From positions 1-46,756 of the forward strand of contig DXGJ01000060.1 in NCBI GenBank assembly GCA_019113985.1: DNA of 46,756 nt. Reading direction: 5' to 3'. The notes beneath the pieces were generated by a model. That model saw nothing but the letters and a program-made list of their open reading frames with translations. It ran no database searches and was not told the origin of the DNA. Below are positions 29,037 to 44,879 of this stretch, in pieces (the first letter of the stretch is position 1; each line of letters begins with the position of its first letter). The DNA is from Candidatus Levilactobacillus faecigallinarum (GTDB lineage Bacteria > Bacillota > Bacilli > Lactobacillales > Lactobacillaceae). The position numbers and the translations under genes were made by a program.

Positions 29037-29978
29037 TTAGTAAGTCGTTACGTAGGATTGGTTGGCAGTAACGTACTTGCCATTCGTTAATTGGAACCGG
29101 TAGGCGTTCTTGCTGTTCTTGGTGATTGCTTTGACAGCGAGCGTCTTACCAGCTTTGACCTTGGTGCTCCGTTGATTCTTGGTGAAGTTGACCCCGTTGT
29201 ATTCGTAGACCGTTTTATCGGTCTTGATACCCGTTACACCGGTCATACTGGTGTAGTAGCTAGCTGCACTGTGCGTAGCGGAGCTGTTGAACCAGCTGTT
29301 AACCGTAGCGCTGTCCAGCGTCTTGTTCAGGTCAACGTTGCCACTGATTCCGGAGACGGAACCCTTGCTGGTGTATTGCCAGAGGTCAGCTGAGACACCG
29401 GAAACGCTAGGCTTAACGGTACTGTACTTAGCAATCCAAGCACCATCGAACTTGGAGAAGTTCAGGTTATGTGAGTTGGCGTAGTATTCACCAGAGTACA
29501 TGATCAAAGGCTTGTTGGTCAGGGAGCGCATGGTCTTTAACCAAGCGTTGACGTAGGTCTGTTCGGACTTCGTCGCTGAGCCCATCCGTTGTTCTTCATC
29601 CAGGACGAAGAACTTGGTGTGTGCATTACTCCGCTTGTAGAAGTCTTTGGCTTCCTGTTGGGCGTCCTTCACGCTGGTGAATTGGGCGAACATGTATTGG
29701 CCAAATGGTACGCCGTACTTGTAGGCGCCATTTGCGTTGGTGTTGCGGGCGGTGTCAACCATGTAGCCCTTGTCACCCTTGCTCCCGTGTTGGACCCGGA
29801 TGATGACACCCTTTAAGTCCTTGGATGCCTTCTTCCAGTTGACGTTTCCTTGATATTGGGAAATGTCAGCAATCTTGTTGCCGGCGGCACTGGCCGTAGT
29901 GGTGTTTAACCCCACGCCTACCGCAACGACAGCCGCCATGGCCGCTAAGCCGATACCTAATCGATGTAACATCTGCAT
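29037..29978 (-). CDS. Secreted GH25 lysozyme with SH3-like/DUF5776 C-terminus
   Basis: A 313-residue secreted muramidase. The signal peptide (about 1-32) ends at ASAA. Residues 35-230 are the GH25 domain: KIADISQYQGNVNWKKA, IIRVQHGS, GQYMFAQF, FFVLDEEQ with the catalytic acidic residues, LIMYSGEYYA and ADLWQYTS. The last 75 residues repeat the DUF5776-like pattern ending GKYVTANQSYVTTY, which probably binds the wall. It cleaves the N-acetylmuramic acid linkage of peptidoglycan and may serve in autolysis or turnover. ATG 29978 has GAGGAGG at 8 bases. Upstream and on the same strand lies the matrixin gene. Confidence 0.92.
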   Translation of the reverse strand: MQMLHRLGIGLAAMAAVVAVGVGLNTTTASAAGNKIADISQYQGNVNWKKASKDLKGVIIRVQHGSKGDKGYMVDTARNTNANGAYKYGVPFGQYMFAQFTSVKDAQQEAKDFYKRSNAHTKFFVLDEEQRMGSATKSEQTYVNAWLKTMRSLTNKPLIMYSGEYYANSHNLNFSKFDGAWIAKYSTVKPSVSGVSADLWQYTSKGSVSGISGNVDLNKTLDSATVNSWFNSSATHSAASYYTSMTGVTGIKTDKTVYEYNGVNFTKNQRSTKVKAGKTLAVKAITKNSKNAYRFQLTNGKYVTANQSYVTTY

Positions 29979-39691: not shown

Positions 39692-39796
39692 ACGTTCAAA
39701 TCCTTTCTACTTAATCAGCTTATCACCAGTATACCGTTTTCATTGTTGAGATGTCACCGTTAACCCAAAAACTTTCGGAAGCGGAACACATATACT

Positions 39797-39825
39797 TTGA
39801 CAAACCGGCGGAAGTGGGTTACTTT
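39797..39825 (+). promoter_or_regulatory. Promoter of the cysteine-leader/OppA transcript
   Basis: TTGACA (39797-39802) and TACTTT (39820-39825) are 17 bases apart. The predicted start, near 39832, leaves about 47 bases before the leader peptide. Confidence 0.6.
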
Positions 39826-39878
39826 AAGAAAGTGCAATCAAGCATTTTGCTAAAAAAGACGAAAAGGAGGAAATCACG

Positions 39879-39971
39879 ATGATCAGCGCTAACCAAAACC
39901 AAGTTCAAGTCGTTCTGGCTGCCGCATGTTGCGAATGTAACGTGTGCTTTTTGCGTTGCGTTCATCCGTGA
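39879..39971 (+). CDS. Cysteine-rich 30-residue leader peptide
   Basis: ATG 39879 follows AAAAGGAGG at about 8 bases, a near-perfect ribosome binding site. The frame encodes 30 residues ending in TGA at 39969-39971. Residues 17-27 contain five cysteines (AACCECNVCFLRC), a very high density. An intrinsic terminator begins about 50 bases after its stop, and an OppA-like lipoprotein gene follows. No signal peptide or bacteriocin leader pattern is present. The arrangement fits a leader whose translation through the Cys codons senses charged tRNA-Cys. It is too short to be called by most gene finders. Confidence 0.65.
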   Translation: MISANQNQVQVVLAAACCECNVCFLRCVHP

Positions 39972-40019
39972 TTTCCAGCCAAACTAGTCGTACATAATCC
40001 AATGAGACGATTAAATAGG

Positions 40020-40061
40020 CGGGTATTTCTCACGTGTGAACGTGGGGAATACCCGTTTTTT
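40020..40061 (+). terminator. Intrinsic terminator/attenuator before the OppA-like gene
   Basis: CGGGTATT (40020-40027) pairs with AATACCCG (40048-40055), and CACGT pairs with ACGTG inside. TTTTTT follows. It lies between the leader peptide stop (39971) and the gene start (40230), so read-through must be conditional. ACGTG within the leader's Cys codons (39940-39944) could pair with the CACGT of the terminator and prevent its formation. Confidence 0.7.
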
Positions 40062-40229
40062 GTGGTCTTAGGGGGTTGCATTGCACCCGTAATACCGTTC
40101 GACGAGAAGCGACCCTGGGACTGGCGACGGCCATCCCAGTCATCACAAAGGGCCCCAACTTGCAAGGGTGATGTCGTGGCTTCAACGGCGTTCGGATCTG
40201 ACAGGAGTTTTGAGGAAAAGGAGAAATCA

Positions 40230-41873
40230 ATGATGAGAAAATGGACCGGTATCGGATTGTTGACAGCAGTAGTCGCTATGGGGTTAGGCCTCGCTGCTTG
40301 TGGACAATCGACCACGACGGCAAAGCCCAAGCAGGACTTAAACCTGCCGGCCACAGCCGCTCTGGACACAATTGATTTAGCAAAGGCCACGGGATATGGT
40401 CAGACGGGGAACGTCTTTGAAAGTTTTTACCGCTTGGGTAAGGACGGGAAGGTTGCCCCGGGCCTGGCTGATTCGGCCAAAGTCTCCAAGGATCAAAAGA
40501 CCTGGACGTTCCACATTCGGGACAACGCAAAGTGGAGTAACGGCGATAAGATTACCGCGCAAGACTTCGTTTATTCCTGGCGCCGGACGTTAACGCCCGC
40601 GACCAAGTCGACCTATACCTACCTGTTCTCCGGTATCAAGGGCGCTAATCAGATTATCGCAGGCAAGGCTAATCCCAAGACATTGGGGATTAGTGCCAAG
40701 GACAAGCAGACCGTGGTTATCCAGCTGGACAAGCCAATGGCCTACTTCAAGATTCTGATGGCCTACCCGCTGTTCGCACCCCAGAACCAGAAGGTTGTGA
40801 ACCAGTACGGCAAGAAGTATGCGACCAAGTCCCAATACATGGTCTACAGTGGGCCCTTTAAGATTCAGGGCTGGTCGGGGACCGGCAACACCTGGTCCTT
40901 CGTCAAGAACAACCAGTACTGGGACCACAAGGTCGTGAAGATGCAGAAAATCAACTACCAGGTGGTCTCCAACCAACAGACCGGCCTGGGGCTGTACCAG
41001 AACAAAAAACTCGACTTTGCCCAACTGACCAACGAACAAGTTAAAAATTACAAAAATAACGCGGCGTTCAAGGAATACCCGTATTCCATCATGATTCACC
41101 TGAAGTACAACTTCAAGAACACCGACGCGACCAAGCGGAAGCAACTCAGCAACCAGAATCTACGGCAGGCGATTTCCCTGTCATTGGACCGGGCGCAATT
41201 GACCAAGAAGGTACTAGGGGATGGTTCCGTGACGCCGACCGGCTTTGTGACCAGCGGCCTGGCTAAGAACCCGAAGACTAACCAGGACTTCGCGACGGAG
41301 CAGGCCGTCAAGAACACCACGACCTACAACCCAACGTTAGCCAAGAAGAAGTGGCGGCTGGCTCAAAAAGAGTTGGGGACCAAGACTATCACCTTGGACA
41401 TTCTGGCAGGCAACGATGACCCAGCGGCCAGCACCGTGACCCAGTACCTCAAGGGGCAACTGGAGAAGACGTTACCCGGCTTTAAGCTGAAGATTCAAAA
41501 CGTGCCAGCTCAGGTTGCTCAGCAACGGTCACAAAACGGCGACTTCGACATTTACCTGTCCCACTGGGGTGCCGACTTTAACGACCCCATCTCCTTCATG
41601 CAGATTCCGGTCAGCTCCAACGCGTTGAACTACGGCAAGTGGTCCAACAAGACTTATGATAGCCTGATCAATAAGGCGCAGAATCAGGACGCGGCTAACC
41701 CAGAGCAACGCTGGGAGGACATGGTCCAGGCGGCCAAGCTGATCAACAAGACCCAGAGTTTTACCCCGCTGTATCAGGCCAACTATGCTTACTTGCAACG
41801 GACCAACGTCAAAGGCATTATTCACAACACCGCCGGGACGCAGTGGAGTTACAAGTACGCCTACATCAAGTAA
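40230..41873 (+). CDS. OppA-like peptide ABC transporter substrate-binding lipoprotein
   Basis: About 547 residues. ATG 40230 or the next codon's ATG (40233) follow AAAAGGAG. A lipoprotein signal peptide leads to the lipobox LAAC (Cys near residue 24). The SBP family 5 features are present: LADSAKVSKDQKTWTFHIRD near residue 80, WSNGDKITAQDFVYSWRR, DILAGNDDP, and FDIYLSHWGADFNDP. It binds peptides outside the membrane and delivers them to an Opp-type transporter. No permease or ATPase genes are adjacent, so it must use components encoded elsewhere. The leader and attenuator upstream suggest that it serves cysteine supply, for example cysteine-containing peptides. That role is inference. Confidence 0.9.
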   Translation: MMRKWTGIGLLTAVVAMGLGLAACGQSTTTAKPKQDLNLPATAALDTIDLAKATGYGQTGNVFESFYRLGKDGKVAPGLADSAKVSKDQKTWTFHIRDNAKWSNGDKITAQDFVYSWRRTLTPATKSTYTYLFSGIKGANQIIAGKANPKTLGISAKDKQTVVIQLDKPMAYFKILMAYPLFAPQNQKVVNQYGKKYATKSQYMVYSGPFKIQGWSGTGNTWSFVKNNQYWDHKVVKMQKINYQVVSNQQTGLGLYQNKKLDFAQLTNEQVKNYKNNAAFKEYPYSIMIHLKYNFKNTDATKRKQLSNQNLRQAISLSLDRAQLTKKVLGDGSVTPTGFVTSGLAKNPKTNQDFATEQAVKNTTTYNPTLAKKKWRLAQKELGTKTITLDILAGNDDPAASTVTQYLKGQLEKTLPGFKLKIQNVPAQVAQQRSQNGDFDIYLSHWGADFNDPISFMQIPVSSNALNYGKWSNKTYDSLINKAQNQDAANPEQRWEDMVQAAKLINKTQSFTPLYQANYAYLQRTNVKGIIHNTAGTQWSYKYAYIK

Positions 41874-43162: not shown

Positions 43163-43984
43163 ATGCGAAAATCATTTAAACGTTTTGCCTGGTTGTTTCT
43201 ACTATTAATACCGCTATTGATCGTCTCGGGCTGTGGCAAGTCGAGCAGCAACAAGACCATCAAGGTCGGTATCATGGGGAGCGATGAAAAAATCTGGAAA
43301 CCTATCCAGACCAAACTCGCGAAACAGGGTGTTAAGATTAAGCTGGTCAGCTTCACCGATTACAATCAACCCAACGCGGCGTTGACCAACCATGAAATCG
43401 ACCTGAACTCGTTCCAGAACCGTTACTTCATGAATACCTGGAACAAGGCCCACAAGACCAACATTGTCGCGTTTGCCGATACCTACCTGGCACCGTTACG
43501 GTTGTACTCCAAGAAGGTCACCAAGGTTTCCCAAATCAAGCAGGGCGCTCAAATCACCATTCCTAACGACGCCACCAACGAAGGCCGGGCCTTACATCTC
43601 CTGGCTTCGGCTGGCCTGATCAAGGTCGACAAGAAGGTTGGTTTGCCAACGCCAAAGAACATTACGGAGAACAAGCTGCACCTGAAGATTACGCCAGTTG
43701 ATGCGGCCCAGACGCCACGGTCCCTCTCGGATGCGACGGCGGCCGTGGTCAACAACGAATTTGCGGCCAGCGCGAAGTTGGATGCTAAGAAGGCCCTCTT
43801 CAAGGAAGCCGTGAACCAGGATTCAAAACCGTACATCAACATCTTAGCTACCAATAAGGCGGATAAGAACAACGCAACCTTCAAGAAGATTGCCAAGGCC
43901 TACCAGACGGCGGCTAACAAGAAGAACATCGCCAAGGTGTACGATGGCTTGTCCATCCCAGCTTGGAATTTGAAACTCAAGTAA
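43163..43984 (+). CDS. metQ: MetQ methionine-binding lipoprotein (first copy)
   Basis: A 273-residue lipoprotein with ATG 43163 behind AAAGGGG. The signal peptide ends in the lipobox VSGC (Cys near residue 24). The mature protein has the NLPA fold: IKVGIMGSDEKIWKPIQTKL, YNQPNAALTNHEIDLNSFQN, then FADTYLAPLRLYSKKV, TIPNDATNEGRALHLL and AAVVNNEFAASAKL. It binds D- or L-methionine outside the membrane for the MetNI transporter. It is the first gene of the T-box-controlled operon. The next gene is a near copy, so this is a recent tandem duplication. Assignment is firm. Confidence 0.93.
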   Translation: MRKSFKRFAWLFLLLIPLLIVSGCGKSSSNKTIKVGIMGSDEKIWKPIQTKLAKQGVKIKLVSFTDYNQPNAALTNHEIDLNSFQNRYFMNTWNKAHKTNIVAFADTYLAPLRLYSKKVTKVSQIKQGAQITIPNDATNEGRALHLLASAGLIKVDKKVGLPTPKNITENKLHLKITPVDAAQTPRSLSDATAAVVNNEFAASAKLDAKKALFKEAVNQDSKPYINILATNKADKNNATFKKIAKAYQTAANKKNIAKVYDGLSIPAWNLKLK

Positions 43985-44054: not shown

Positions 44055-44879
44055 ATGAAAAAATCATTCAAGCGTTTTTCCTGGTTATTCTTACTATTGC
44101 TTCCATTATTGATCGTTGCCGGCTGTGGCAAGTCGGCTAGCAGCACCAAGACCGTGAAAGTTGGTATCATGGGGACCGACGAAAAAATCTGGAACCCCAT
44201 CAAGACCAAGCTGGCCAAGGAAGGCATCAACATCAAGCTGGTGACCTTCACTGATTACAACCAGCCCAACGCGGCCCTGACCAACCACGAAATTGACTTG
44301 AACTCGTTCCAGCACACCTACTTCATGAACACCTGGAACAAGGCCCACAAGTCCAACATCGTGGCCATCGCCAACACCTACCTGGCACCACTACGGTTAT
44401 ACTCAAAGAAGATCAAGAGCGTTTCCCAAATCAAGAAGGGTGACCAAATCACCATTCCAAACGATGCCACCAACGAAGGTCGGGCCCTGCATTTACTCCA
44501 GTCCGCTGGCCTGATCAAGGTCAACGATAAGGTTGCCTTACCAACGCCTAAGAACATTACCCAGAACAAGCTGAACTTAAAGATTACACCAATGGACGCT
44601 GCTCAAACGCCACGTTCCCTGTCCGATGCCACGGCGGCCGTAGTCAACAACGAATTCGCGGCCAGCGCGAAGCTGAACGTGAAGTCCGCCCTGGCCCGCG
44701 AAAAGGTCAACAAGGCGTCCAAGCCATACATTAACATCATCGCGGCCAACAAGTCCGACAAGAACAGCGCCACCTTCAAGAAGATCATCAAGGCTTACCA
44801 GACGGAAGCCACCAAGAAGAACATTGAAAAGGCCTACGATGGCTTGTCCATCCCAGCCTGGAACCTGAAACTGAAGTAA
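44055..44879 (+). CDS. metQ: MetQ methionine-binding lipoprotein (second copy)
   Basis: A 274-residue paralogue of the preceding gene, co-linear along its full length, including the signal peptide (RFSWLFLLLLPLLIVAGC) and motifs. Differences cluster in the 145-165 and 200-245 regions. Both copies keep the ligand-site segments, so both are probably functional, perhaps with different affinity or substrates (for example methionine sulfoxide or D-methionine). ATG 44055 follows AAAAGGGG. The gap between the copies is 70 bases, and no terminator separates them. It is followed directly by metN. Confidence 0.93.
   Translation: MKKSFKRFSWLFLLLLPLLIVAGCGKSASSTKTVKVGIMGTDEKIWNPIKTKLAKEGINIKLVTFTDYNQPNAALTNHEIDLNSFQHTYFMNTWNKAHKSNIVAIANTYLAPLRLYSKKIKSVSQIKKGDQITIPNDATNEGRALHLLQSAGLIKVNDKVALPTPKNITQNKLNLKITPMDAAQTPRSLSDATAAVVNNEFAASAKLNVKSALAREKVNKASKPYINIIAANKSDKNSATFKKIIKAYQTEATKKNIEKAYDGLSIPAWNLKLK

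Follow-up and report, generated by a model that had tools for sequence, protein, structure and literature searches.

A predicted cysteine-responsive leader-peptide attenuator upstream of an oppA-like gene in Levilactobacillus, with sister leaders in other Lactobacillales

The window analyzed here, a 46,756-nucleotide (nt) contig (DXGJ01000060.1, assembly GCA_019113985.1) of Candidatus Levilactobacillus faecigallinarum, carries a short, cysteine-rich open reading frame (ORF) and an intrinsic terminator ahead of a gene for an OppA-like substrate-binding lipoprotein. Judging from sequence comparison, this locus is very probably a cysteine-responsive, ribosome-mediated transcription attenuator of cysteine-supply genes in the Lactobacillales. 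Its components, evident in the aligned genomes, are a leader ORF with conserved tandem cysteine codons (CysCys), covarying alternative helices, a terminator, and sister leaders upstream of transport and cysteine genes. A preliminary description of the window had proposed a Cys-codon attenuator in front of a peptide-binding protein, and this idea is now supported by conservation, by compensation within the hairpins, and by leaders found upstream of amino-acid transporter and cysteine/methionine synthesis genes.

All features of the locus lie on the plus strand. The leader ORF (39879-39971; MISANQNQVQVVLAAACCECNVCFLRCVHP) has 30 codons, with Cys codons at positions 17, 18, 20, 23, and 27, i.e., five within eleven, as originally described. 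It is preceded by the strong and conserved Shine-Dalgarno (SD) sequence AGGAGG (39865-39870). The tandem Cys codons 17-18 (TGT TGC; 39927-39932) are the proposed sensor, and the ORF ends with a TGA stop codon (39969-39971). An intrinsic terminator (40017-40061), consisting of a 19-pair stem (40017-40058) and a T run (40056-40061), does stand before the substrate-binding lipoprotein gene as had been claimed, and the latter (40230-41873) is OppA-like, with a Pfam SBP_bac_5 match (E 6e-80). Upstream, a promoter (39797-39825) combines the -35 hexamer TTGACA (39797-39802), a 17-nt spacer, and the -10 sequence TACTTT (39820-39825). Its initial description as good holds for TTGACA, the spacer, and a similar -10 sequence, all kept in the genus group, and fails for the -10 itself, a poor consensus match in a promoter left unlisted by a consensus scan.

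Taken alone, the Cys-rich ORF is only mildly unusual. When ATG-initiated ORFs of 12-60 codons with at least five Cys in 11 residues were counted, the window held two, whereas 60 dinucleotide-shuffled versions averaged 0.15 and nine of them contained at least one. Likewise, terminator-like sites were at chance level, with four found and 3.7 expected in the stretch scanned. The ORF and terminator are placed above chance because both are conserved in relatives. The second Cys-rich short ORF of the window, at 29705 on the plus strand (MVRRTCRRHLRWCCGRCQPCSPCHPCSRVGPG), is probably a chance occurrence. An Rfam search of the whole window returned no matches, and thus no T-box or riboswitch model match, and at a relaxed threshold the interval 39700-40300 gave seven matches (E 0.3 to 9.6), all far under their cut-offs.

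Used as a DNA query, the leader region found matches in 35 of 35 genomes of its own genus and in none of 23 genomes from elsewhere in the order. The genus group, as defined here, comprises 32 loci: the window, 29 from Levilactobacillus, and two from Lactobacillus sp. The preliminary description had suggested aligning relatives for conserved Cys codons and compensatory hairpin changes, and both were found: a Cys leader lies upstream of the OppA orthologue at all 32 loci and recurs in other genera, and the hairpins carry the compensatory changes detailed below. Most of the 32 peptides share the core ACC-x-CN(V/M), and the tandem Cys17-Cys18 forms the only columns invariant across genera in an alignment of 22 peptides. 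In all 32 leaders the distance from ATG to CysCys is divisible by three, taking five values (39, 42, 45, 48, or 51 nt), the ATG having been chosen behind the SD sequence with the frame disregarded. The distance from CysCys to the downstream RNA strand termed strand 2 is 41, 42, or 43 nt, with remainders modulo three of 2, 0, and 1 in 22, 7, and 2 of the 31 leaders measured. There is therefore a coding constraint up to CysCys, and it is the RNA that is conserved beyond it. Cys23 and Cys27 of the window fall in the part without a conserved frame, and on this comparison the predicted sensor is tandem Cys17-Cys18, joined by Cys20 in the genus group. Of seven more distant OppA relatives from the orthologue search, five (four Pediococcus and Lactobacillus corticis) have a Cys leader.

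That nucleotides after CysCys are conserved despite the change of reading frame would also suit a ligand-binding riboswitch or a protein-binding leader in which the ORF is incidental, as would a helix joining the 5' end to a post-terminator element (described below), for which a simple attenuator has no need. This alternative is nevertheless highly improbable given the strict triplet spacing of ATG and CysCys, the retention of the SD sequence and start codon, and the occurrence of both CysCys codons as TGT and TGC in other genera, CysCys itself having been a search condition there. Moreover, Rfam 15, with its T-box and riboswitch models, matched neither the window nor the leaders of 20 loci.

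In the RNA structure, strand 1 (GGAAATCACG; 39869-39878) overlaps the leader SD, touches the start codon, and forms 10 bp with strand 2 (39962-39980; core CGTGATTTCC, 39967-39976), which can alternatively pair with the 5' arm of the terminator. Enclosed between these strands is a seven-pair hairpin, GCAUGUU/AACGUGU (39924-39945), with the tandem Cys codons in its 5' arm; all 25 chosen leaders can form this seven-pair hairpin, none having more than one position unpaired. In the window the leader stop codon lies within strand 2; in the relatives read, it is either inside that strand or immediately after it. Beyond strand 2, a middle hairpin (39985-40013), indicated by folding and by covariation in relatives (helices 4-6), brings strand 2 together with strand 3 (40017-40039), which comprises the terminator's 5' arm and the adjoining side of its loop, as located by terminator scan and folding; the window row fits the covariation alignment badly at the middle hairpin. 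When 18 untranslated leaders were folded, the SD/start region and the leader end came together in a long hairpin. This hairpin contained an inner one with the CysCys codons and was followed by the middle hairpin in most leaders and then by the terminator.

Covariation supports these helices. The 1:2 helix is paired in 93.8% of alignment cells, with both sides changed in 6 of 11 pairs, and the terminator helix in 94.6%, with such double changes in 8 of 17 pairs. A further helix joins the 5' end and a post-terminator element (UGUGCAAUCC/GGAUUGCACA), with 98.9% of cells paired and 3 of 10 pairs double-changed over 28 rows. In the window, it consists of GTGCAAT (39832-39838) and the complementary ATTGCAC (40080-40086) beyond the terminator, only 7 bp in all; it appears as UGUACAAUCC/GGAUUGUACA in three loci (L038, L041, and L056), and no recognizable pair was found in L031 and L064. 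This helix may shield or mark read-through transcripts. The full structure, i.e., the 1:2 helix, inner and middle hairpins, terminator, and 5'/3' helix, is paired in 95.9% of cells, versus at most 48.7% when the partner is slid, and 21 of its 55 pairs are double-changed, versus 8.9 in shuffles, none of 500 of which reached the observed count. This alignment (A2) contained 28 of the 32 loci, excluding L031 and L064 (no post-terminator partner), L046 (no terminator), and L049, a near-duplicate of L044; another alignment (A3) contained 23. In L046, from Levilactobacillus cerevisiae DSM 100836 (1220-1500), the leader is intact and the post-terminator element present with the terminator absent; the hairpin was either deleted naturally or collapsed during assembly.

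The proposed antiterminator pairs strand 2 with strand 3 (39962-39980 with 40018-40039 in the window). When RNA was folded up to the terminator loop, to mimic the state with the polymerase at that point, strand 2 and its surroundings paired with 9-16 positions of the terminator 5' arm in each of 36 leaders from the genus group, Pediococcus, and L. corticis. Together, the antiterminator and middle hairpin are paired in 89.2% of cells (slid versions, at most 42.5%), and 9 of 24 pairs are double-changed, versus 3.9 in shuffles (none of 500 reached this), five of the nine belonging to 2:3. The preliminary description had instead paired ACGTG, inside the Cys codons, with CACGT in the terminator. 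That match exists, but it is not the conserved one: the terminator arm's conserved partner is CGTGA (39967-39971), 27 nt further on and 3' of the Cys codons.

Sister leaders extend well beyond Levilactobacillus. A covariance model from a mixed-genus alignment (R1, from A1) was sequence-only and was replaced by genus-level alignments. At E<=1, the next model (R2, 23 leaders) had matches in 39 of the 301 genomes searched in the family, several matches being real leaders before other genes; nine had the strand called wrongly because the inner hairpin is nearly self-complementary. Since R2 scored Pediococcus leaders poorly (10.7 bits and E 0.75 for L061), a third model (R3) was built from 25 chosen leaders, and at E<=0.1 it had matches in 107 of the 397 family genomes. 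Of these 107 genomes, 25 belong to the genus itself and 82 to other genera; our survey covers 65 loci from 61 of the latter. A CysCys leader, CysCys being a condition of that search, was present at 59 of the 65; five matches (L178, L183, L184, L186, and L187) had no CysCys ORF, and one (L188) was judged spurious. A terminator followed 58 of the 59 survey leaders, L168 being the exception.

The first genes downstream of these 59 leaders, assigned from their sequence with profiles run on representatives, are mostly concerned with uptake. In 42 cases the gene is OppA-like, and in eight it belongs to an amino-acid ABC transporter. Among the latter, the best NCBIfam profile for L179 is a cystine ABC permease (235 bits, under its cut-off of 300), a glutamine permease profile scores highest for L158 and L097, and L182 was assigned from fragments. 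Two leaders precede SDF-family symporters, which may be TcyP-like. Three loci of one genus, g23 (L172, L180, and L181), have a peptidase C26 gene; in L172, the one C26 locus read further, this gamma-glutamyl hydrolase-like gene is followed by an amino-acid permease gene, perhaps reflecting use of gamma-glutamyl-cysteine compounds. The remaining first genes are ProC-like (two), OsmC-like followed by an OppA-like gene (one), and MetA-like followed by a CysK-like gene (one), and none of the 59 is cysS, unprofiled genes having been read from sequence. Some genomes carry more than one leader. For example, genome G275 has one leader ahead of an OppA-like gene and a second one ahead of an ABC permease gene, and L. 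corticis has two (L204 and L207) 1.9 kb apart, the second directly before oppA; apparently each of two tandem oppA-like genes has its own.

At the level of the order, 25 of 246 genomes gave matches at E<=0.1, seven from the same family and 18 from outside it; of five outside matches read, only L134 has a leader (none in L135, L136, L137, or L139). In a second family of the order, 15 of 105 genomes gave matches. Of its 17 matches, 11 were read and six had leaders: in one genus, a CysCysCysCys leader with a terminator-like hairpin precedes a CysK-like gene at six loci, and at five of these the next gene is cystathionine synthase/lyase-like, as read from the sequence. The other five of the 11 have no such leader. 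What the preliminary description regarded as a rarely described arrangement in front of an OppA-like gene is one member of a family of leaders that recurs.

These downstream genes also bear on whether the nascent peptide itself, for example through thiol metal or redox state, stalls the ribosome in place of Cys-tRNA supply. A Cys-rich peptide and a CysCys..AsnMet-like core in many genera are what peptide arrest would lead one to expect. However, the residues that would occupy the exit tunnel, before CysCys, vary in the 22-peptide alignment, the AsnMet is accounted for by the hairpin 3' arm (AAC AUG), and several of the downstream genes are transport or cysteine genes, leaving little room for this explanation, which we rate on a par with the riboswitch alternative. 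Least probable of all is purely translational control, in which stalling would free a downstream ribosome-binding site without affecting transcription. It draws on Pediococcus (g22), where a second short Cys-containing ORF lies between the terminator and oppA at 8 of 10 loci; this ORF is possibly a second, translational control step. Against it stand the terminators after 58 of 59 survey leaders, and no conserved helix over the oppA SD was noticed, with no test for one across all leaders. The second ORFs (MxxEC.. or MSPGC..) occur in L151, L157, L160, L161, L132, L100, L101, and L106, and one has a TTG start and a single Cys.

A cross-genus test of pairing used 90 leaders with a located terminator (31 from the genus group, 58 from the survey, and one from L. 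corticis), L046 and L168 lying outside the set as loci where no terminator was found. Strands 1 and 2 of the same leader pair with a mean of -21.9 kcal/mol, versus -12.0 kcal/mol with leader ends from other genera. For 69 of the 90 leaders, less than 5% of the foreign ends match this pairing in strength (about 4.5 leaders expected). The antiterminator gain averages -7.7 with a leader's own terminator arm versus -4.4 with foreign arms. Tested as a simple duplex, 2:3 gave a weak result (12 of 59), and the fold-gain test was better (30 of 90). The 5'/post-terminator helix passed the foreign-partner test in 27 of 31 genus-group leaders versus 7 of 59 others, which rules it out as a general feature. 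In 77 of the 90 leaders the first codon of CysCys is number 14 or 15; in the window it is number 17.

The mechanism that we infer from this arrangement is as follows, with ribosome stalling, read-through, and the OppA substrate as its inferred parts. RNA polymerase would transcribe the leader, and a ribosome would begin the 30-codon ORF. With ample Cys-tRNA, the ribosome would reach the stop codon in strand 2 and cover that strand, the terminator (3:4) would form, and transcription would end before oppA; with no translation, 1:2 would pair and the terminator would form as well. When charged tRNA-Cys is scarce, the ribosome would wait at the tandem Cys codons, with the usual footprint ending near 39944, strand 2 would be free, and the resulting 2:3 pairing would block closure of the terminator, allowing transcription of oppA and, in turn, more uptake of cysteine-containing peptides. 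One step is left unexplained by the textbook model: strand 1 sits behind, not under, the stalled ribosome. Since strand 1 consists of the SD/start region of the leader and does not contain the sensor codons, we suggest that another ribosome, trailing the first and positioned on the start codon, would keep strand 1 away from strand 2. There are 13-14 codons before CysCys in 77 of the 90 leaders, and 16 in the window, leaving room for such a ribosome.

Several observations weigh against the attenuator reading. Even with a ribosome stalled, the minimum-energy structure of the RNA 3' of it retains the terminator in 18 of 18 leaders, and the switch must therefore be kinetic, as is also the case for attenuators of other kinds; in principle, 1:2 could also close around the stalled ribosome. 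In 30 of 36 leaders the terminator is more stable than the antiterminator fold, the antiterminator's z-scores against shuffled arms range from -3.2 to +1.4 (above zero in L032, L033, and L068), one part of 2:3 is paired in just 76.5% of cells, and one antiterminator measure was equalled by 4 of 500 shuffles. Across genera, the antiterminator falls under 5% versus foreign arms in just 30 of 90 leaders, and versus shuffled arms in 24 of 90; g54 lends it no support and g22 hardly any; the 1:2 helix is weak in g55, where 9 of 22 leaders pass the foreign-end test. The covariation shuffle controls ignore kinship, the structures were derived from members of the same set, and RNAalifold on the mixed-genus alignment gave no pairs. 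Finally, the survey leaders were selected for CysCys, the ProC-, OsmC-, and C26-type first genes are without a plain cysteine link, and no such leader lies in the stretch examined for two distant OppA relatives, L066 (at a contig edge) and L067.

In the best segment, the OppA-like protein shares 92% identity with its L. spicheri counterpart and 90% with the one from L. namurensis, and by sequence the window belongs to the Levilactobacillus group. The closest solved chains by sequence are 5kzt_A, PrgZ (4faj_A), and 6npo_A. Reading of the surrounding ORF list revealed no permease or ATPase gene beside oppA, and two OppD/F-type ATPase matches lie on another contig of the same draft genome. A search of a plasmid collection with oppA returned 39 records with 60-80% identical pieces. 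Two tandem genes read as MetQ-like lipoproteins lie nearby (43163-43984 and 44055-44879), with no Rfam element over threshold. The E. coli Opp system is reported to take up reduced glutathione (PMC11719327), and cysteine-containing peptides or glutathione are for this reason a plausible cargo of OppA.

Attenuation by a leader peptide is a known kind of control. In trp/his-type attenuators, 1:2, 2:3, and 3:4 helices are alternatives, sensor codons are present, and the stop codon lies near strand 2. The present leaders share this plan, but unlike trp/his they do not have the sensor codons in strand 1; these codons lie in an inner hairpin that strands 1 and 2 enclose, and strand 1 is the initiation region. 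The uORFC-8-2 motif, a cysS leader of Rhodobacterales, likewise has tandem Cys codons, usually 14 and 15, in a first stem followed by an intrinsic terminator, and stalling at these codons was proposed to give read-through (PMC8632094). The motif is described as alphaproteobacterial, associated with cysS only, and built of two prominent stems, whereas the leaders here belong to Lactobacillales, precede mainly uptake genes, pair their SD/start strand with the leader end, and add a proposed antiterminator. The motif's position upstream of cysS also differs from the window, where the gene 3' of the leader is OppA-like. In Actinobacteria, runs of Cys codons likewise precede cysteine genes (Mycobacterium cys, P. 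acnes, and B. longum cbs), and in Mycobacterium, unlike here, conserved terminator hairpins are not reported in the accessible text (PMC1262725); the mycobacterial polycysteine upstream ORFs (Canestrari 2020, as cited in PMC13236596) are leaderless by title. Within the Firmicutes, codon-sensing attenuation is reported for other amino acids and genes, namely hisS/hisZ of bacilli (PMC2965389) and a leucine-rich attenuator of S. aureus (PMC5794164). A 2008 T-box survey covers L. plantarum, and its accessible portion does not mention a cysteine leader (PMC2494555). The Lactobacillales version is judged new because no report of it was found in the literature searched, subscription papers being mostly outside reach, and because Rfam gave no match over the 20 loci.

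A broader picture can be offered only tentatively and is rather doubtful: a Lactobacillales-wide cysteine regulon built on one mobile attenuator, in which the initiation site would serve as the anti-antiterminator strand, two ribosomes, one stalled on CysCys and one loaded behind it, would provide the readout, and in Levilactobacillus the 5' end, by pairing with sequence past the terminator, would mark or shield escaped transcripts. Many lactobacilli need external cysteine or cysteine peptides, and little was found in print on how they sense cysteine. A codon-sensing attenuator before uptake and cysteine-synthesis genes would be a direct answer to that question. The leader also suggests a cysteine role for the otherwise unassigned peptide-binding proteins encoded behind it, and the substrates of transporters may be predictable from the leaders that precede them.

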